Under the pieces are notes generated by a model. The model worked only from the letters and a program-made list of their open reading frames with translations. It made no database searches and was not told the origin of the DNA. A DNA stretch of 64,000 nucleotides, from the NCBI RefSeq assembly GCF_011297335.1, contig NZ_JAAOTJ010000009.1:1-64000 (forward strand), given 5' to 3'. Positions within the stretch are counted from its first letter, which is position 1. Each line of letters begins with the position of its first letter. Source of the DNA: Catellatospora methionotrophica. GTDB lineage: Bacteria; Actinomycetota; Actinomycetes; Mycobacteriales; Micromonosporaceae. The translations under genes were made by a program, and so were the position numbers. Positions 1,515-13,696 of the stretch are shown piece by piece.

Positions 1515-3185
1515 GTGGACAACCCCCTCGCGGGCGCGGCGGCGAACCGCCGATCGTTCCTGAGCCTGCTCGGCCTGGGCGCGGTCGCCGTAGCGGGCAG
1601 CGGCACCCTCGCCGCCTGCGGTGAGAAGGCGGCGGACCCGGGCACGACGCAGCAGCTCGACAAGCTGCAGGCGGTCCTGCCCAAGTTCCAGCCGCTGGAG
1701 CTGGTGCAGCCGGACATCAAGGGCGTCTCGCCGGTCGCCAACGGCTTCACCAAGTATCCGTCCGCGCTGGTCGACGCGATCACTGAGAAGCCCGGCCGGG
1801 GCAGCACCATCACCACGATGACCCCGTTCTGGGGGCAGGTGCCCGCCGGTCCGGGCCAGAACGCGTACCTCGACGCGATCAACGCGGAACTGGGTGCGGT
1901 GGTCACGCCGGGCGTGCAGGACGGCAACACGTACGCCGACAAGCTGAACGCGATCCTGCCCGCCCGTGACATCCCGGACGTGCTGTGCATTCCGGGCTGG
2001 GAGATCAGCAAGATCCCCAACTTCTCCGAGGCGGCCAAGGCGCTGTTCGAGGACCTCACCGACCACCTGGCCGGGGACAAGGTCAAGCCGTACCAGATGC
2101 TGGCCAGCCTGCCGACCGTCGCCTGGGGCAACGCGGTGTGGAACGAGCGGCTGATGGCGGTCCCGTGGCCGACAGACGGCCCCTACCCGTGGGCGCTGTT
2201 CTACCGCAAGGACCTCGTCGACGCCGCGGGGGCGGGGATTCCGAAGACCGCCCAGGAGCTGTACGACTTCGGCAAGAAGATGACCGATCCCGGCAAGGGC
2301 GTGTGGGCGTTCAACGACGTCCAGGCGATGGTCGAGATGATCTTCCGGGTGCCGAACTCGAAGGACGGCTGGGGGTACAAGAACGGCAAGGTGCTGTTCA
2401 AGTACGAGACCGACGAGTTCAAGGCCGCGCTGGAGTTCATGGCCAAGCTGTACAAGGACGGCCTGATCCACCCCGAGGTCGTGGCCAGCAAGGGTGCCGA
2501 CGCCAAGCTGCTGTTCTCCGGCGGCAAGATCGCGATGATCCAGGACGGCGTGGGCGCGTGGCTCGGCATGCAGGCCGAGCAGCAGAAGGTCACCTCCGGC
2601 TTCAACATGCAGCCGGTGCCGTTCTTCGCCGCCGACGGCGGCGCGCCGCTGGTCTGGGGCTCGCCCGACCCGGTCTTCTACACCTTTGTCAAGAAGGGCC
2701 TCGGCAAGGAGAGGACCGAGGAGATCCTGCGCATCCTCAACTTCGTCGCCGCGCCGCTGGGGACGAAGGAGTTCGAGCTCGTCGAGTACGGCGTCGAGGG
2801 CAAGCACTTCACCAAGGGCGCCGACGGCTGGCCGGTCGGCACCGACCTGCAGGGCAAGGAGAAGGCGGACCAGTTCCGCTTCCTGGCCGGCACCGCCCCC
2901 ACGATCAAGTACGACGCACGGGTACCCAACTACGTGACCGATCTGATCAACTGGGAGAACGCCGCGGTCAAGAACCTCGAGGTCGACCCGTGGCTGGGCA
3001 TGAAACTCGAGATGCCGGCGGAGTACGTGAAGGTCAAGCAGCCCACCGAGGACAAGGTCAAGGACATCGCCCGGGGTCGCCGGCCGCTGTCCGACCTGGA
3101 CACCGTGCTCAAGCAGTGGCGTGACGGGGGCGGCGAGACGGGCCGCGCGCACATGGCGAAGGCGCTGAGCGACGCTGGCCGATGA
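1515..3185 (+). CDS. Tat-exported sugar ABC transporter substrate-binding lipoprotein
   Basis: The 556-residue protein starts with a twin-arginine signal (NRRSFLSLLG, residues 12-21), a hydrophobic stretch and a lipobox ending LAAC, so it should be exported folded and lipidated at the membrane. The remainder looks like the long LplA/YtcQ class of extracellular solute-binding proteins (family 1), which pair with LplB/LplC-type permeases. It would capture oligosaccharide outside the cell and deliver it to the two permeases immediately downstream. The GTG start has AAGGGAG about 8 nt upstream. The exact ligand cannot be read from sequence; the neighbouring alpha-xylosidase and beta-galactosidase suggest a xylose- or galactose-decorated oligosaccharide. 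Confidence 0.9.
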   Translation: MDNPLAGAAANRRSFLSLLGLGAVAVAGSGTLAACGEKAADPGTTQQLDKLQAVLPKFQPLELVQPDIKGVSPVANGFTKYPSALVDAITEKPGRGSTITTMTPFWGQVPAGPGQNAYLDAINAELGAVVTPGVQDGNTYADKLNAILPARDIPDVLCIPGWEISKIPNFSEAAKALFEDLTDHLAGDKVKPYQMLASLPTVAWGNAVWNERLMAVPWPTDGPYPWALFYRKDLVDAAGAGIPKTAQELYDFGKKMTDPGKGVWAFNDVQAMVEMIFRVPNSKDGWGYKNGKVLFKYETDEFKAALEFMAKLYKDGLIHPEVVASKGADAKLLFSGGKIAMIQDGVGAWLGMQAEQQKVTSGFNMQPVPFFAADGGAPLVWGSPDPVFYTFVKKGLGKERTEEILRILNFVAAPLGTKEFELVEYGVEGKHFTKGADGWPVGTDLQGKEKADQFRFLAGTAPTIKYDARVPNYVTDLINWENAAVKNLEVDPWLGMKLEMPAEYVKVKQPTEDKVKDIARGRRPLSDLDTVLKQWRDGGGETGRAHMAKALSDAGR

Positions 3186-5379: not shown

Positions 5380-6144
5380 TCAGGTGAGGAAGGTGACTAT
5401 GGCGGCGGCGAATTCGGGGTTGCGGACGACGGTGAGGTGGTCGCCCGCGAGGACTTTCCAGCGGGCGTCGGGCAGGGCGGCGGCCAGCACTTCGGGGCGG
5501 GTGGCCAGCCAGTCGTCGGTGCCGGCGAGGACGAGCGCGGGGATCGTGATGCGGTCCAGGGCGATGGGGGCGCGGTGGCCCGCCTGGGCCTGGGCCGCCA
5601 GCGCCTGGCGGTCCGCGCCGGACGCGTCGGCGAACAGCCGGAAACCCATGACCCGCTCGTCGGTGATGGTGCTCGGGTCGTCGGTGAGCAGGCCGTCGAC
5701 CAGTGCCCGGCCGGGCAGGGCGGCCCGGTCGACGCCGCCCTGCTCGACGGCTCCGGCCCCGATGCCGCCGGTGACCAGTCGTCGGACCCGCCGGTCCGCG
5801 GCGGCGGTGAGCAGCGCGACGACGCCGCCCATCGAGTAGCCGACCAGGTCCACCCGGTCCAGTCCGAGCTGGTCGAACAGGGTGCCCAGGTCGCGGGCCA
5901 TCTTGTCCTCGCCGTACCGCGCGGGGTCGTGGGGTTTCTCGGAGGAGCCGTGGCCCCGCGCGTCGATCGCGATGACGTGGCGGCCCGCCCCGACCAGGGC
6001 GTCGACGATGCCGGGCGCCTTCCAGTTGGCGGCGGCCGAGGTGCTGAACCCGTGGTGTAGGACCACGGGCGGCAGGTCGCCGCCAGGTTCGCCCCAGGTG
6101 TGGTACGCCAGCGTGATGCCGTCGTACGACGGGAAGGTCTGCAT
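5380..6144 (-). CDS. Alpha/beta-hydrolase
   Basis: A 254-residue single-domain alpha/beta-hydrolase. Visible features are the oxyanion HHGF segment (about residue 30), the nucleophile elbow GYSMGG (Ser near residue 102), an acid in AGTDDW and the catalytic His in GDHLT near the C-terminus. No signal peptide, so cytoplasmic. Substrate is not predictable; the family includes esterases, epoxide hydrolases and ring-cleavage hydrolases. Its place between the importer and xylulokinase suggests, but does not prove, a deacylating role on imported sugars. The 246-bp space upstream contains a palindromic repeat (6335-6389) and no further gene was seen. Confidence 0.85.
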   Translation of the reverse strand: MQTFPSYDGITLAYHTWGEPGGDLPPVVLHHGFSTSAAANWKAPGIVDALVGAGRHVIAIDARGHGSSEKPHDPARYGEDKMARDLGTLFDQLGLDRVDLVGYSMGGVVALLTAAADRRVRRLVTGGIGAGAVEQGGVDRAALPGRALVDGLLTDDPSTITDERVMGFRLFADASGADRQALAAQAQAGHRAPIALDRITIPALVLAGTDDWLATRPEVLAAALPDARWKVLAGDHLTVVRNPEFAAAIVTFLT

Positions 6145-6334
6145 GCGGCTCTCCGATCAGGTCAGGGCCCGGAGCCGCCGCACTCGGCGGGCGTGCCACC
6201 GGGGCACGCGATGCCAGGGCGCACGGTGCCGGCGGCTACTTGATCAGTCTGCGCAGCGGTGCGGCTCGGCGGCATCGGCGATTTCACCGGTCCCGCCGCA
6301 CCCGCGCCCCGACCTGCTCCGCAGGGACTGCGGG

Positions 6335-6389
6335 GCAAGGAAGGGCACCTTCCACAACGCTCTGGCGTTGGGAAGGTGCCCTTCCTTGC
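6335..6389. repeat. GGAAGGGCACCTTCC palindromic element, intergenic copy
   Basis: Perfect 19-bp arms GCAAGGAAGGGCACCTTCC (6335-6353) and its complement (6371-6389). The loop contains a second small stem CAACGC/GCGTTG. The element abuts the 3' end of xylulokinase (stop at 6391) and could serve as its terminator. The same core is found inside the GH42 gene at 11413-11458. The core family is one I associate with Micromonosporaceae genomes. Confidence 0.85.
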
Positions 6390-6390
6390 A

Positions 6391-7785
6391 CTACACGCGG
6401 GGGAGGGTGAGCTCGCGGGCCTCGGCGTAGCGGGCACGGACGGCGGGCACGGCGTCGGCTTCGAAGGTCTCCAGGCCGTCGAGGGTCCACGCGGGGGCGG
6501 TGCCGGTGGCGACCCAGGCGGCCTGGCGGGCCGCTCCGTCGGCCACGTACTCGCCTGGCGGGGGGACCACGACGGGGCAGCCGAACACCGACGGGGCGAT
6601 CCGGCGTACCGCCTCGGCGCGGGCGCCGCCGCCGACCAGGACCACGCGGGACACGGTCGCGCCCTGGCCGCGCAGGGCGTCGAGGCCGTCGGCCAGGGCG
6701 CAGAGCATGCCCTCGACGGCGGCCCGGGCCAGGTGCGCGGCGGTGGACGTGCCCAGGGTCAGGCCGTGCAGCGAGCCGGTGGCGTCGGGCTTGTTCGGGG
6801 TGCGCTCGCCTTCGAGGTAGGGGACCAGCACCAGGCCGTCGCTGCCCGCCGGGGCGGACAGGGCCAGCCGGGACAGTTCGGCGTGGTCGACGCCGAGCAT
6901 GGTCGCGGCGGCGTCCAGGACGCGGGCCGCGTTCAGGGTGCAGACCAGCGGCAGGTAGTGCCCGGTCGCGTCGGCGAACCCCGCCACGGTGCCGGTGTCG
7001 TCGGCGGCGGGGGTGGTGGCGACGCTGAACACGGTGCCCGAGGTGCCGATGGAGACGACCACGTCACCGGGCCGCGCGCCGACGCCCAGCGCCGCGGCGG
7101 CGTTGTCGCCCGCGCCGGGGCCGAGCAGCGCGCCGCCGGGGGTGCGGCCGGGGGAGCCGTCGGGGCCGAGCACGGTCGGCAGCACCAGGGCGTCCCGGCC
7201 GAAGGCGAGTTTGAGCAGGTCGCGACGGTACTCGCCGGTGGTCGGGGACCAGTAGCCGGTGCCGGAGGCGTCGCTACGGTCGGTGGCCAGCGCGGACAGG
7301 TCGCCGGTCCCGCCCAGCCGCCAGGTCAGCCAGTCGTGCGGCAGGCACACCGCCTCGGTGCGGGCGGCGTTGTCCGGCTCGTGCTGGGCCAGCCAGCGCA
7401 GCTTGGTCACGGTGAACGAGGCGACCGGCACGCTGCCGACGGCGTCGGCCCAGGCACGTGGCCCGCCGAGTTCGGCGACCAGGTCGGTGGCGGCCTGCGC
7501 GCTGCGGGTGTCGTTCCACAGCAGCGCGTCGCGCACGACGGCACCGGAGGCGTCGAGGCAGACCATGCCGTGCTGCTGCCCGCCGACCGAGATCGCCGCG
7601 ACGTCGTCCAGCCCGCCCGCCGCGGTGATCGCCGTCTGCAGGGCCTGCCACCAGGCCTCGGGCGGGCAGGACGTGCCGTCGGGGTGGCTCGCCCGGCCCT
7701 GGCGGACCAGCGCGCCGGTGTCGGCGTCGCGGACCACCACCTTGCACGATTGGGTGGAGGAGTCGATGCCGGCGACGAGTGTCAT
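6391..7785 (-). CDS. xylB: Xylulokinase
   Basis: A 464-residue FGGY-family kinase. The N-terminal ATPase fold starts [13 protein letters not shown]; the C-terminal half carries the nucleotide-binding [18 protein letters not shown]. Length and the VGGQQHGMV segment fit xylulokinase rather than glycerol kinase. It phosphorylates D-xylulose to xylulose 5-phosphate for the pentose phosphate pathway in the cytosol. It starts 5 bp after the GH31 gene, so the two form an operon: release of xylose from oligosaccharide, then kinase. The intervening xylose isomerase (xylA) is not in this window. ROK control is likely because of the upstream motif at 10194-10219. Confidence 0.93.
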
Positions 7786-7790
7786 GAAGT

Positions 7791-10151
7791 TCAGTCTCCT
7801 GGAGCCTGCCAGGCCGCCGTGAGCAGGCCGTCCACCGGGCCCAGCGTGGCCCGCACGCCGTTGACCAGCACGGTGGCCGGAGGGGTGCCGCCGGCGACGG
7901 TGGGGAACGCGATCGCCGTGACCCGGGCCGGCCCGGCGATGGTCACCGAGAGCGTATCCCCGTCCCGCCGTGCCGCGACAGTGCTTACGTAACCGTCGTC
8001 ACGTATCTCGCACGCCCCGTCGCCGCCCCCGAAGCTCAGCAGGGTGAGCTGCGCCCACGGCCCGTCGGCCAGGTGCTCGGCGGGCGCGGCCACCGGCAGC
8101 AGCGCGTCGCGGCGCACCCACAGCGGCTGCTGCGTCAGCGGCGGGGCGACACGCAGCGTGACACCGCCGCCGACCACGTCGCCGCTCCACCAGTCGACCC
8201 ACTCGCCGGGCGGCAGGTACACGTCGCGCTGCTGGCTGGAACTGATCATGGGAGCGACCAGCAGGTCCGTGCCGAGCCGGTACACGTGCTCGGCCCGCCA
8301 CGACGCCGCGTCGGCCGGGGAGTCCACGCCCAGCGCCCGCATCATCGGCTCGCCGGTCGCCGCCGAGCGCAGCGCGGCCGAGTACAGGTACGGCAGCAGC
8401 CGGTAGCGCAGCCGCAGCGCCTCGATCACGTCCGCCTCGACGGCCGGGAAGCGCCACGGCTCGCGGGTCGTCGTGCCGTGGAAGCGCACCAGCGGCGACA
8501 GCGCCCCGAACTGGGCCCAGCGCAGGTAGAGGTCGTCGCTCGGCACGCCGCAGAAGCCGCCGCTGTCGTGCGACCAGTACGGCACCCCGGACAGCCCGTG
8601 CGCGAGCCCGCCGTTCATGGACGAGGCCAGCGCCTCGTACGAGCACATCGTGTCCCCGCCCCACTGCGCCGCGTGCCGCTGCCCGCCCAGGTACGACGAG
8701 CGGGCCCACACCATCGTGTGCCCGTGCACCTCGCGGGTGACCTCGGCGACGGCGTCGTTGAACAGCAGGGCGTACACGTTGTGCAGCTCGGTGCCGGTCA
8801 TGCCGTTGAAGGCGACCGCGTCGGCGGGCACGCCCTCGGCGAAGTCGGTCTTGAACACGTCGACGCCCTGCCGGGCCAGCGGCCGCAGCAGGTCCTGGAA
8901 CCAGGCGGTCGCCTCCGGGTTGGTGAAGTCGACGATGCCGCCCGCCGGGAACGAGCCGTGCCAGGAGTCGGCTACGTACACCGCGCCGTCGGCCCGGCGC
9001 AGCAGGAAGCCCCGCTCGGCGGCCTCGGCGAAGCGGTCGGTGCGGTGCGACAGGTACGAGTTCATCCACACGCAGACCCGGAAGCCCTGCTCGTGCAGGG
9101 TGGCCAGCATCGCGTCCGGGTCGGGGAACGCCACCGGGTCCCAGCGCAGGTGCGACCAGGTGCCCTCGGCCTGCCAGTAGGTGTCCAGGTGCAGCACGTC
9201 GCAGGGGATGCCGTGGGCGCGGATGGTCGCCGCACGGGCCAGCACCGCCTCCTGCGTGTCGCGGCAGAAGCCCGACGAGATCCAGGAGCCGAACGCCCAC
9301 TTCGGCGGGCAGGCCGGGCGGCCGGTGAGCGCGTCGTAGCGGTCCAGCACGTCGGCCGGGGTGGGCCCGGCGAGCACGTAGTACTCGATCAGGTCGTCGG
9401 GCACGAGGAGCTGGGTGACGCTGCCGGTGGACGCGCCGAAGTCGAACTCGACCGGCATGCCCGAGTCGACCACGACACCGTAGCCCCGGCTGGACTGGTA
9501 GAACGGCACGTTCTTGTACGCCCGGTCGGACTCGCTGCCGAAGGCGTCGAAGTTCCACATCACCGGCCGCTGGCCGCGCAGGTTCAGCGCGGTGAAGCGC
9601 TCGCCGGTGCCGGACAGGACCTCGTCGGCGGGCATGGCGAAGCTCTCGTGGTAGGCCACGATCTGCCCGTCGACGCGCGAGCAGCCCAGCGGCAGGGTGC
9701 GCATCCGTCCGGAGATGTCAGTCAGGCCGGGGTCCGCGCCGAGCAGCGGCCGCCCGTCGGCGTCGTGAAAGGACAGCCGCCACGGGTCCAGCGTGACCTC
9801 GGCGGTCAGCGGCCCGGCCGTGACGGTGACGGTGTTCTCGCCGGTCACCACGGTCGCCACCGCGCCCGGGTCGGGCTGGGTGAGCGGGAGCAGCCGGGCG
9901 CTGCGGCTGCGCGCCCCGGCCTCGGCGGACAGGCGTACCCGCAGGATCCCGTCGCCGGCCGCGCCGACGTGCAGATGCAGCACGGTTCCGGCGTCGGTGA
10001 ACGCGTCGAAGGTCACGCCGACGGAGTCCTTGCCGGTCAGCTCGGCCCGCACGACGGTCTCCGGGCCGGGTTCGCCGTGGGCGCGGCGGGGCAGTTCCGG
10101 CGGGTCGGCGGAGAAGTACTCGTGGGCCACCAGTGGCGGGCGGAACGGCAT
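7791..10151 (-). CDS. GH31 alpha-xylosidase-like glycosidase
   Basis: A 786-residue glycoside hydrolase family 31 enzyme of the YicI/XylS type. The nucleophile region reads [10 protein letters not shown] (Asp near residue 432), matching the KTDFGE signature of alpha-xylosidases, and the acid/base segment is [12 protein letters not shown] (Asp near residue 497), followed by [15 protein letters not shown]. There is no signal peptide, so it acts in the cytosol on imported oligosaccharide, releasing alpha-linked xylose. It is the first gene of an operon with xylB. The start has GGGAG 8 nt upstream. Alpha-glucosidase activity is the main alternative, but the KTDF motif and the xylB neighbour favour alpha-xylosidase. 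Confidence 0.9.
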
Positions 10152-10193
10152 TATCGGCTCCCAGCGCGGCGTCTACTGCAGGTATGACGTCTT

Positions 10194-10219
10194 TTAGTTT
10201 TCCGTGTAGCCAAACAAAC
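10194..10219. promoter_or_regulatory. Candidate ROK operator between GH31 and GH42 genes
   Basis: TTAGTT (10194-10199), 12 nt, then AAACAAAC (10212-10219): the reverse complement of the GTTTGTTT-N12-AACTAA motif found at 1415-1440. A perfect 13-bp palindrome, GTCAACGGTTGAC, follows directly at 10220-10232. The region drives GH31-xylB leftward and GH42 rightward. Confidence 0.5.
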
Positions 10220-10263
10220 GTCAACGGTTGACGCCCCGTCCTGCTCCCTCTAATTTGGCCGGG

Positions 10264-12270
10264 GTGCCGACAAACTCGACCTTCTACGGTGCGGACTGGA
10301 ACCCCGAGCAGTGGCCGGAGCCGGTCTGGGCGCAGGATCTCGCCCTCATGCGCGAGGCCCGCGTCACCGCGGCGACCGTCGGCGTGTTCAGCTGGTCGCG
10401 CCTGGAACCGAGCCCCGGGGCGTACGACTTCGGCTGGCTCGACCGCGTCCTCGACGGCCTGCACGCCCACGGGATCGGCGCGGTGCTGGCCACCCCGACC
10501 GCCTCCCCGCCGCCCTGGTTCACCCGGGCCCACCCCGACGCGCTGGCGACGCGCCGCGACGGCGTACGCCTGGTCCACGGCTCCCGCGACACGTACTGCG
10601 TCAACGCCCCCGCCTACCGCGCCGCGAGCCTGCGCATCGCGACCGCGCTCGCCGTGCGCTACGCCCGCCACCCCGCACTACGCCTGTGGCACGTACACAA
10701 CGAGTACGGCACCTGGTGCTTCTGCGACCACTGCGCGCGCGCCTTCCGCACCTGGCTACGCGAGCGCCACGGCGCCGTCGACGCCCTCAACGACGCCTGG
10801 ACCGCCGACTTCTGGAGCCAGCGCCACGGCGACTGGTCCGAGATCCTCCCGCCCCGCGCCACCCAGTACCTCGGCAACCCCGCGCACGAGCTGGACTACC
10901 GGCGCTTCCTGTCCGACAGCATGCTGGCGGCGTACACCGAGCAGCGCGACGCGATCAAGGCGGTCGCCCCGGCCGCGCAGGTCACCACGAACTTCGTGCT
11001 CGGCGGATGGGTGCCCGTCGACCACGCCAGTTGGTCCCGCGAGGTCGACCTCGTCGCCATCGACCACTACCCGTCCACACTGGACGGCGTACCCGCGCAG
11101 AGCGCCTTCGCCGCCGACGCCGCGCGGGGCTGGTCGGCCGCCGCCGGGCACGGCGGACGCTGGCTCCTGATGGAGCACGCCCCCGGCCACGTCACCGAGC
11201 AGGGTGTCCAGCGCCGCAAACCACCCGGCATGCTCGCCCGTACCGCGCTGGCGCACGTCGCCCGTGGCTCGGCGGGGGCGATGTACTTCCAGTGGCGCGC
11301 GAGCCGCGGTGGCGCTGAACAGTGGCACACCGCCCTGGTCGCCCACCCCGGCCCGGCCACCCGCCTCTTCGCCGAAGCCGTCGCCCTCGGCAACCGCCTC
11401 GCGGCAACTGAAGGAAGGGCACCTTCCGATCGCTCGGCCGATCGGAAGGTGCCCTTCCCCACGGGCGAGCCCGCCGGAGCCGCGACGGCGTGCGGCGAGG
11501 TGGCGGTGTGGTTCGACGAGACGTGCGGTTGGGCGGTCGGGGCGTCGCACCTGCCCGCGCCCGTGGACTACCAGGGGATCGTCGAAGACTGGCACCGGGC
11601 GCTGTGGCGGCTGGGGTATCAGGTCGACGTGGTGCCGCCCTCGGCCGCGCTGGACGGATACCGCGTGCTGGTCGTGCCTGCGGCCTACCTGCTCACCGAC
11701 GAATCGGCGCGCAGGCTGGAGCGGTACGTGCGCGAGGGCGGGCACCTGGTGGTGACGTACCTGTCCGGGATCGTCGACGAGCACCTGCGGGTGCGGCTCG
11801 GCGGATACCCGGGCGCGCTGCGCGAACTGCTCGGCGTGCACGTCGAGGAGTTCGACCCGCTGCCGACCGGAACGGCCGTCACCCTGGACAACGGCGACCG
11901 TGCCACCGCCTGGACCGAGCACCTGACCGCGCCCGGCGCGGCGGTGCAAGTCTCCTATCCCGATGGACGACCGGCGATCACCCGGCGCGAGCACGGCACC
12001 GGCACCGCGCACTACGTCTCCTGCGGCCTGGCCGAGACCGCGACGGCACACCTGCTCGACGGGGTCTGTGCCGCCGCCGGAGCCGCCCCGGTCCTGCCCG
12101 GCCTGCCCGACGGCGTGGAGGCGGTCCGCGCCACGGACGGAGTCTGGCTGTTCAACCACACCGGCGAATCTCACGACATCGCCGGTCATGCGCTCCAGCC
12201 AGGCGCAGCGATGGAGCTACCTGCTTTTAGCAGCCTTTTCACGGAAATCGCTGCTACGAGGTCCCGATAG
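10264..12270 (+). CDS. GH42 beta-galactosidase
   Basis: The protein (about 668 residues from GTG 10264) is a glycoside hydrolase family 42 enzyme. The start MPTNSTFYGADWNPEQWPE matches the family N-terminus better than the upstream TTG at 10228. Acid/base Glu147 lies in WHVHNEYG and nucleophile Glu304 in LLMEHAPG. Cys112, 152, 154 and 157 form the usual zinc cluster. The A domain is followed by the trimerisation domain (about 400-610) and a short C-terminal part. It removes terminal beta-galactose from oligosaccharides in the cytosol. Residues 384-399 are encoded by a palindromic repeat (11413-11458), an insertion at the boundary of two domains that keeps the reading frame. It is divergent from GH31-xylB and shares their candidate operator. 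Confidence 0.9.
   Translation: MPTNSTFYGADWNPEQWPEPVWAQDLALMREARVTAATVGVFSWSRLEPSPGAYDFGWLDRVLDGLHAHGIGAVLATPTASPPPWFTRAHPDALATRRDGVRLVHGSRDTYCVNAPAYRAASLRIATALAVRYARHPALRLWHVHNEYGTWCFCDHCARAFRTWLRERHGAVDALNDAWTADFWSQRHGDWSEILPPRATQYLGNPAHELDYRRFLSDSMLAAYTEQRDAIKAVAPAAQVTTNFVLGGWVPVDHASWSREVDLVAIDHYPSTLDGVPAQSAFAADAARGWSAAAGHGGRWLLMEHAPGHVTEQGVQRRKPPGMLARTALAHVARGSAGAMYFQWRASRGGAEQWHTALVAHPGPATRLFAEAVALGNRLAATEGRAPSDRSADRKVPFPTGEPAGAATACGEVAVWFDETCGWAVGASHLPAPVDYQGIVEDWHRALWRLGYQVDVVPPSAALDGYRVLVVPAAYLLTDESARRLERYVREGGHLVVTYLSGIVDEHLRVRLGGYPGALRELLGVHVEEFDPLPTGTAVTLDNGDRATAWTEHLTAPGAAVQVSYPDGRPAITRREHGTGTAHYVSCGLAETATAHLLDGVCAAAGAAPVLPGLPDGVEAVRATDGVWLFNHTGESHDIAGHALQPGAAMELPAFSSLFTEIAATRSR
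11413..11458. repeat. Palindromic element inside the GH42 coding sequence
   Basis: Perfect 20-bp arms GGAAGGGCACCTTCCGATCG (11413-11432) and complement (11439-11458) around the 6-nt loop CTCGGC. The core is identical to the intergenic copy at 6335-6389. In the GH42 frame it encodes GRAPSDRSADRKVPF, a hydrophilic stretch that is not expected in the family. Confidence 0.88.
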
Positions 12271-12286
12271 CCCGGTCGTAGTCGGA

Positions 12287-13696
12287 TCAGCCGGTCCGCT
12301 CGATCTCGCCGGGGCGCCAGGTCTGGTCGTACCAGGGCTGGAGCGGGGTGTAGAGGCGCAGGAAGGTGAACCAGTGCTTGCCGGGCACGGTCTGGATCCA
12401 GTTCGCCTCCCGGCCGGGCGGCGGCGTAGGGCCGAACCAGACCTCGGTGCTGCCGTCGGCTTCGGCCACGACCGTGCCGGACAGGCTGCTCAGGCTCGGG
12501 TACGGGGTGTCGGTGGCCAGCAGCGAGCGGGTCTGGCAGTCGTACACGCACACCGACCAGAACGTCTTCGCCGGGACGTGCCGGGGCAGGCGCAGCCGGT
12601 AGGAGTGCCCGCCGTCGAGCCACCGGCCGTCGGCGTCCTCGGCGGTGTAGGCGTACGCCGAGCCGGTGCCCACCGGGGACTGCGCCATCGCGGGCGTGAC
12701 GACCGTGGCGAGGTAGTGGAATGCCGCGCGGGCGTCGAGCAGGCGTGCGCCCTCGCGGAGGAACTCGTGGCTGCCGCCGATGAACAGCCGCTTCCACGAG
12801 GAGTCGGGGTAGTAGTACGCCTCGGGGTCGCGGGGCCGGAACGCCAGCGCACGGGCGATGCCGGCGGCCAGCGGGGCGGCCTTGGCGAGGATCGCGCGCA
12901 GACGCTGGTCGGGGCCGAACACGTCGCCCTTGACCAGGCCGATCCCGGCCAGGATGCCGCGGCGTTCGGGATCCAGGGAGTCCAGCGGCTCCTCCTGGAT
13001 CACCACGTCGACCTCGTCGTAGAAGGTCGCGTCGTTGGCGTGCACGGTGTTGTGCGGCCGGTCGGCGAGGTTGACGAACTCGTTCGGCGGCGGGTACGCG
13101 GCCTGGGACAGCGGGTAGACCCGGATCCTCCGGATCGCCTCGACACCGTCGAGGGCGCGGAACATGGCCCAGTTGGTGAAGGTCGGGCAGCGGAAGACGT
13201 AGTAGCCGTCGGGCACCTCGTCCTCGTGGTCCGGCGGCAGGAACAGGTACTTGCCGCCCGCGCCCTGGTCGGGGCCGCTCAGGCCGAGGTCGGTGACGTA
13301 GCGGAACCAGAAGTCGTCGACGACGCACAGCGCGTTCGGCGGCACCTCGACCACGGTCGGCCCGTCGGTGTCGAGGTCGAGGAAGGTGTGGCCGTACGTG
13401 GTGTCGGTGTTGGGGGTCAGGTAGAGGCTGGTGGAGTTGAAGCGCGGGTCGGTGATGCCGATCTGGCGGGCCGAGGTGACGCCGACGTTGCGCAGTCCGG
13501 CCCGGATCGCGGCGAGCGACGCGGCGGGCATGGCGACCAGGAACGCCTCGACCGCGCGGATCAGGTCCAGGGCGTCGTAGAGCCCGTCGGTGCTGTCGTC
13601 GGCGGGCAGGCCGTCGGGGAAGGCGAACTGGCCGAGCGGGGTGTCCAGCGTCTCCGGCATGCCGATGGCGGCCAGGATCTCCTTCGGAATGGACAT
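12287..13696 (-). CDS. DUF1254/DUF1214 domain protein
   Basis: A 469-residue protein with an N-terminal DUF1254 region (about residues 60-190, with PNTDTTYGHTFLDL) and a C-terminal DUF1214 region (about 330-460, with FWSVCVYDCQTRSLL and WIQTVPGKHWFTFLRLYTP). Proteins with this pair are widespread and have no firmly established biochemical role. No signal peptide or membrane segment is evident here. It is convergent with the GH42 gene, 16 bp away, and not obviously co-transcribed with anything. No function is assigned. Confidence 0.85.
   Translation of the reverse strand: MSIPKEILAAIGMPETLDTPLGQFAFPDGLPADDSTDGLYDALDLIRAVEAFLVAMPAASLAAIRAGLRNVGVTSARQIGITDPRFNSTSLYLTPNTDTTYGHTFLDLDTDGPTVVEVPPNALCVVDDFWFRYVTDLGLSGPDQGAGGKYLFLPPDHEDEVPDGYYVFRCPTFTNWAMFRALDGVEAIRRIRVYPLSQAAYPPPNEFVNLADRPHNTVHANDATFYDEVDVVIQEEPLDSLDPERRGILAGIGLVKGDVFGPDQRLRAILAKAAPLAAGIARALAFRPRDPEAYYYPDSSWKRLFIGGSHEFLREGARLLDARAAFHYLATVVTPAMAQSPVGTGSAYAYTAEDADGRWLDGGHSYRLRLPRHVPAKTFWSVCVYDCQTRSLLATDTPYPSLSSLSGTVVAEADGSTEVWFGPTPPPGREANWIQTVPGKHWFTFLRLYTPLQPWYDQTWRPGEIERTG

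Follow-up and report, generated by a model that had tools for sequence, protein, structure and literature searches.

The palindrome within a GH42 beta-galactosidase gene of Catellatospora methionotrophica is probably an old, in-frame copy of a genus-wide, REP-like family of hairpins that usually sits at gene ends and is maintained by copying rather than by fresh transposition. We propose that the copy entered GH42 before eight of the Catellatospora genomes diverged, and that the insertion would have fallen in a length-tolerant linker and left the frame open. Since then, the copy may have been kept palindromic by arm-to-arm templated repair and by exchange with other copies; candidate mechanisms for this copying are gene conversion and template switching. 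Most members of the family would form a stable RNA hairpin at mRNA 3′ ends, and the effect of the insert on the GH42 enzyme would be near-neutral.

The GH42 insertion

The window, by which we mean the whole 64,000-nt stretch of DNA that was analysed, contains a perfect inverted repeat at positions 11413–11458 of the plus strand, made up of a 5′ arm (11413–11432) that includes the inner near-palindrome GGAAGG-GCA-CCTTCC, a 6-nt loop of sequence CTCGGC (11433–11438) and a 3′ arm (11439–11458), the 20-nt arms being 100% complementary. The repeat lies within the plus-strand GH42 open reading frame (ORF) at 10228–12270 (alternative start, GTG at 10264), which runs through it, as the initial annotation had claimed in describing an in-frame palindrome with perfect 20-bp arms. 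The codons at 11413–11457 (plus strand; ORF residues 396–410) are translated as GRAPSDRSADRKVPF, that is, 15 residues where about 16 had been estimated, and the insert was indeed located between the two GH42 domains, Pfam Glyco_hydro_42 (23–392) and Glyco_hydro_42M (424–615). In an AlphaFold2 model built with 18 sequences (mean pLDDT 84; model numbering starts at ORF residue 19), the insert occupies residues 378–392 of a low-confidence linker. A helix that runs up to 377 and a strand that begins at 407 flank it, and pLDDT falls below 50 at 380–387 and 396–401 between them, so that the model describes what is probably a flexible linker. The 91-nt RNA of positions 11390–11480 was predicted to fold with −54.4 kcal/mol (z −5.85), and none of 200 shuffled sequences was as stable.

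The core of the repeat, GGAAGGGCACCTTCC, was found four times in the window when up to two mismatches were allowed, each time exactly, against 0.18 occurrences expected. Two of these cores form part of the GH42 palindrome and two lie at 6339–6385, which bears out the claim that an intergenic copy has the core in common. The intergenic copy (6337–6387, no strand assigned) is matched by both the core and a covariance model, R1, and lies 3 nt past the stop of a minus-strand gene at 6391–7785 that is kinase-like by eye only. R1 placed the GH42 element at 11411–11460 (plus strand, 50 positions), this copy itself being among the 17 building sequences of the model, which include both window copies; a palindrome may match R1 on both strands. 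No Rfam family reached threshold within positions 6000–12500.

The GH42 gene is present in all 11 Catellatospora genomes, and eight of them carry the element at the corresponding site. Six have it in the frame of the window (its own genome, G000, and G002, G003, G004, G005 and G010) and two, G001 and G006, have it one base out of that frame, where it reads ERKGTFLT...; the second arm has decayed in G001, and the second core is direct, not inverted, in G006. With this distribution the copy is old, neither recent nor private to its own genome, and the initial wording of a repeat that has inserted here is to that extent not supported. The three genomes without the element (G007, G008 and G009) were grouped in a midpoint-rooted tree of the protein (support 100/99), as were the eight with it (85/97, drawn open). 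These data are compatible with a single ancestral insertion that was followed by a one-base shift, and also with two separate insertions at the same place. In G007, 33 residues separate conserved anchors that are 51 residues apart in the window, a difference of 18 residues or 54 nt; a gap of about 48–54 nt exactly at the repeat had been anticipated, and its length agrees, but clean borders were not obtained from the alignment with G007, in which the adjoining linker is too diverged. Target-site duplications were not established around any of the elements. The GH42 linkers of G008 and G009 are long and rich in proline and alanine without holding a palindrome, indicating that this linker tolerates several types of expansion. 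Within this linker (loci L058 and L057), short tandem repeats are present in G008. Separately, the GH42 reading frame at 3001–5097 of L048 has an in-frame stop at residue 690 of 699, inside the stretch that aligns to the GH42 protein of the window.

The dispersed family and its seat at gene ends

The palindrome had been assigned to a dispersed family rather than to chance, and counts in its own genome agree: the 15-base core has 139 exact occurrences (67 and 72 on the two strands, respectively), and the reversed control does not occur. Each core is itself the near-palindrome described above, and the usual element consists of two cores 31 nt apart that are inverted or, sometimes, direct. Among 200 genomes of the bacterial family, the exact core was found in 21, namely all 11 of Catellatospora and 10 of the 189 others, the latter with one or two matches each; a looser core pattern was found in 19 of 121 genomes and 5 of 44 genera. 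R1, with no more than 150 candidates scored per genome, gave at least 143–150 matches in each of the 11 Catellatospora genomes. The prevailing core type differs between them: G000 has 139 CTTCC cores versus 47 CTTCT cores, and in its relatives the ratio is reversed, with 366 CTTCT-type cores in G001, except for G008 (one of each). The case for a core shift in G000 is built on these genome counts and on the GH42 and 6337–6387 sites; the UreF core is CTTCC in G000 and four relatives alike and adds nothing to it. REP sequences carry a GTAG or CGTC tag at one end (PMC3733652); by eye, the Catellatospora elements end in AAGG/CCTT, and GTAG is present in the interior of many G001 copies. No account of a Catellatospora hairpin family or of the core string was found in a literature search that covered few subscription journals and is weak evidence of absence. 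An orientation bias by replichore (30 of 31 elements on the plus strand at first) was dropped, as a further listing mixes both strands. In G010, the GH42 (L051) and ScpB (L186) copies have GCG-type centres, and those of the other element-bearing genomes are mostly GCA at the two loci counted. A second dispersed near-palindromic repeat, ~80–125 bp long, was noticed at about 10440–10570 of L196; it is present at no fewer than about 40 places in G006, on both strands, and sequence that looks similar by eye lies beside elements in L006, L023, L028, L122 and L087.

Elements are concentrated outside genes and close to gene 3′ ends, according to gene calls from a simple codon-score finder. The 90 elements placed in G000 comprise 44 between tandem genes, 34 between convergent and 5 between divergent genes, 6 inside genes and 1 at an edge; 112 gene 3′ ends lie at a median of 24.5 nt from an element and 54 gene 5′ ends at a median of 120.5 nt. 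The G001 sample (780 kb in 40 stretches, 38 of them picked for holding listed matches and two around GH42) yielded 80 clusters, of which 36 are convergent, 33 tandem, 3 divergent, 5 inside genes and 3 at edges, with 105 gene 3′ ends at a median of 9 nt, 39 gene 5′ ends at a median of 93 nt and 41 gene ends within about 6 nt of the end of an element. Divergent spacers are depleted both in G001 (3/72 elements versus 117/418 spacers of at least 60 nt; Fisher p 2e-6) and in G000 (5/83 elements versus 14/64 spacers in 104 kb, whatever their length; Fisher p 0.006), and only 6/90 and 5/80 elements of G000 and G001, respectively, are inside genes, although 84–88% of the sequence is coding. An element lies directly behind the counterpart of the 6391–7785 gene in six of seven relatives examined; in G007, the exception, about 1 kb separates the gene from the nearest stem-loop. 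The seat at gene ends and the depletion between divergent genes suggest an RNA 3′-end hairpin, and, from position and fold, gene-end copies most likely act at mRNA 3′ ends, where they would either terminate transcription without a U-tract or protect the transcript from decay. A T-run behind the stem was absent from the 57 gene-end copies tabulated in G001, and a scan for consensus terminators lists neither window copy.

In-frame copies occur in several unrelated conserved genes. The six copies inside genes of G000 are internal or near the N terminus in GH42, UreF and ScpB and at the C-terminal end in three proteins that stop within the element or just beyond it, a sigma factor, CobD/CbiB and a RibD_C protein (Pfam names); the five inside genes of G001 are in GH42, inside a protein that has a CysS_C domain at its C terminus and, in three cases, near C termini, two of these three being in one gene that is CobD-like by eye. 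The rarity that had been ascribed to palindromic elements inside proteins thus does not extend to Catellatospora, whereas the comparison drawn with the palindromic elements of Rickettsia (RPEs) is a fair one. The UreF insert lies within the Pfam-matched stretch 34–189, and an AlphaFold2 model of UreF (mean pLDDT 55) is usable only to place it after a helix. Eight of the 11 genomes have the UreF element, and G008 and G009 have a degenerate form of it; in G007 it is missing, and UreF is 13 residues shorter there than in G000, the aligner splitting the gap in two. ScpB has a direct-type copy, in a different frame, in 8 of the 11 genomes, and no core was present in the ScpB ORFs of G007, G008 and G009. 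Elements that overlap gene ends give proteins C-terminal tails (L027, L109, L122, L198 and L203). The KGTFLT frame introduces a TTA leucine codon into GH42 at L055 and L056 (G001 and G006) and likewise into the ScpB orthologs L182, L183, L184, L185 and L188; the window copy of GH42 contains no TTA. High-GC actinomycetes contain few TTA codons, the reading of which can depend on a developmental tRNA, so that an element copy in this frame could, via TTA, tie its gene to development.

Site occupancy, interior change and competing explanations

The palindrome had been called mobile or dispersed, and of these only dispersal was supported: sites of elements were largely shared between the sister genomes G001 and G006. 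Of 78 G001 sites, 42 were located in the stretches compared and 40 of these are occupied in G006; in the opposite direction, 43 of 53 sites were located and 42 are occupied. Among the three rows scored as empty, two apparently represent a single site whose core has mutated, and the remaining one seems absent or decayed. For G000 and G002, only three orthologous sites were located. Two of these are occupied; at the third (L087), G002 has no element although the flanks align at 92–94%. These two probable absences show that turnover is not zero at sites that are otherwise mostly stable.

Current mobility of the family is therefore not supported, as far as one sister pair shows, and we consider it unlikely that the GH42 palindrome is a currently mobile miniature element (a MITE or REP mobilised by an enzyme, Y1/RAYT transposase or other) that keeps jumping and landed in frame by chance. 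Such an element would be consistent with the high number of near-identical copies, the strain-specific abundance of core variants and the two probable site absences, one in each genome pair. It is difficult to reconcile with the occupancy of located sites and with the lack of an established target-site duplication. A RAYT/Y1 transposase in particular was rejected as the mover, the link typical of REP/REPIN sequences not being found: Y1_Tnp (PF01797) was detected in 6 of the 11 genomes, G001 with its 366 CTTCT-type cores not being one of them, and no core was present in L080–L085, six of the nine loci with Y1_Tnp matches, which the repeats thus do not flank.

At these shared sites, the interiors of elements differ in a genome-specific manner. 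We compared 29 orthologous pairs of G001 and G006. Intact cores and standard spacing were the criteria by which these pairs had been chosen, and conservation of the core is therefore by construction in this set. Interiors were identical in 12 pairs and different in 17, and in 16 of the latter each side was nearer to the type of its own genome, a score reached by none of 2000 label swaps. At one interior position, 15 of the 29 pairs have A in G001 opposite T in G006 and none has the reverse; another differs in the same one-sided way in 13 versus 0 pairs. Independent mutation would not be expected to produce such parallel change at separate loci. A coding copy, that of UreF, differs as a block as well: G001 and G006 are 97.4% identical outside the element (530 columns) and 100% identical in the arms (28 columns), whereas the 18-nt interior is 44% identical and the frame is kept. 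By contrast, the interior of the GH42 copy in G006 is not of the type that prevails in that genome (11 of 17 copies). In an initial small set of 11 pairs, one of them mispaired, orthologs had 3.0 interior differences versus 5.3–5.5 for paralogs; because orthologs are still closer than paralogs, concerted evolution would be partial. The data thus point to an RPE/REP-like family with partial concerted evolution. We tentatively extend this to the idea that ~50-bp hairpins at mostly fixed sites exchange sequence among copies, those in protein genes included, which we regard as a serious possibility rather than as the expected outcome. The central trinucleotide of the inner palindrome was also seen flipped, GCA versus TGC, between orthologs (L245 3056–3105 versus L205 15959–16008, and GH42 of G001 versus G006), for which a palindrome-centred inversion or template switching would do.

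The arms of the GH42 element have changed in a matched manner. Over the six genomes that have it in the window frame, 4 of 20 arm pairs changed on both sides, whereas shuffles, which ignore the relatedness of the genomes, averaged 1.0 (2 of 500 reached 4) and slid controls gave 0 in all cases. One matched change (L031, G010) costs a valine-to-alanine change. The arms of the window copy are perfect over 20 bp and those of the five other genomes of its frame are mismatched at the inner two pairs. Matched changes at an amino-acid cost, together with the very stable fold, could indicate a stem selected within GH42, either for ribosome pausing between the domains or for transcription attenuation when translation lags. 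Templated arm-to-arm correction, or replacement by another copy, yields the identical pattern and explains the matched changes without stem selection; moreover, the second arm is decayed in G001, the second core is direct in G006, three genomes have no element in GH42 and unrelated proteins hold copies in other frames. We accordingly regard selection on the stem as improbable.

Selection on the peptide itself, in GH42 and UreF, is very improbable. The frame reading GRAPS...KVPF recurs in both proteins, and GRAPS is found again in the sigma-factor tail. However, the frame varies between the GH42 clades and in the ScpB, CobD and RibD_C proteins (KGTF, EGHL), the UreF interior varies freely and confidence in the GH42 model drops below 50 within the insert (model residues 380–387). 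A chance palindrome or an assembly artefact is scarcely credible in view of the shuffled folds, the excess of cores over expectation and the element at the corresponding place in seven other genomes, the last of which excludes the sequencing or assembly error that the initial annotation had named as a possible refutation.

Relation to known repeat systems

Terminator hairpins without a U-tract share some features with the family described here. Actinobacteria use an I-shaped terminator type, a hairpin without a U-tract, and such terminators likewise place a GC-rich stem directly behind stop codons. Plain terminators would not be expected to have a primary sequence common to more than 100 copies, some of them inside genes, and the U-tract of intrinsic terminators was not found in the 57 G001 gene-end copies.

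A close likeness is to the palindromic elements of Rickettsia and Wolbachia, which are dispersed hairpin repeats that are also intergenic and occur in frame in conserved proteins (PMC2229807, PMC3733652). Rickettsia RPEs are 105–146 bp long and have intragenic insertions in 19 reading frames (PMC2229807). The Catellatospora family is, like them, a dispersed family of hairpin-forming repeats; compared by description, its element differs in being about 50 bp long, GC-rich, located mostly behind stop codons and found in a soil actinomycete genus. Rickettsia repeats lose the identity of their arms over time (PMC6649704), whereas the GH42 arms of Catellatospora show matched changes. REP/REPIN sequences are short extragenic palindromes present in hundreds per genome, with paired units able to form a hairpin (PMC3116915). 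The Catellatospora repeat is similarly a short, high-copy palindrome with an extragenic preference, and it differs from them in having several in-frame coding copies. Inverted repeats are also found in protein genes of Nematomorpha mitochondria, where the arms co-change at an amino-acid cost and template switching has been proposed (PMC6649704); these palindromes are mitochondrial, and the available text of that article describes no dispersed family seated at stop codons.

What is unusual about the Catellatospora family is that copies at mostly fixed sites do not evolve independently of one another, and signs of this are also seen in the copies within genes. If exchange among copies holds true, short peptides of unrelated proteins would be rewritten in parallel and in frame by one DNA family while most of its copies serve as gene-end hairpins. 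A review of 1988, listed in the references of PMC3116915, asks in its title whether REP sequences evolve by gene conversion. Shared sites with genome-specific interiors make this question directly testable: flanks in G001 and G006 are mostly 90–98% identical, and about 40 comparable sites were obtained from less than one-tenth of the genome. Coding palindromes have been described for Rickettsia, Wolbachia and some mitochondria, and a genus of soil actinomycetes in which several genes hold a copy in frame provides a tractable system in which to study them.
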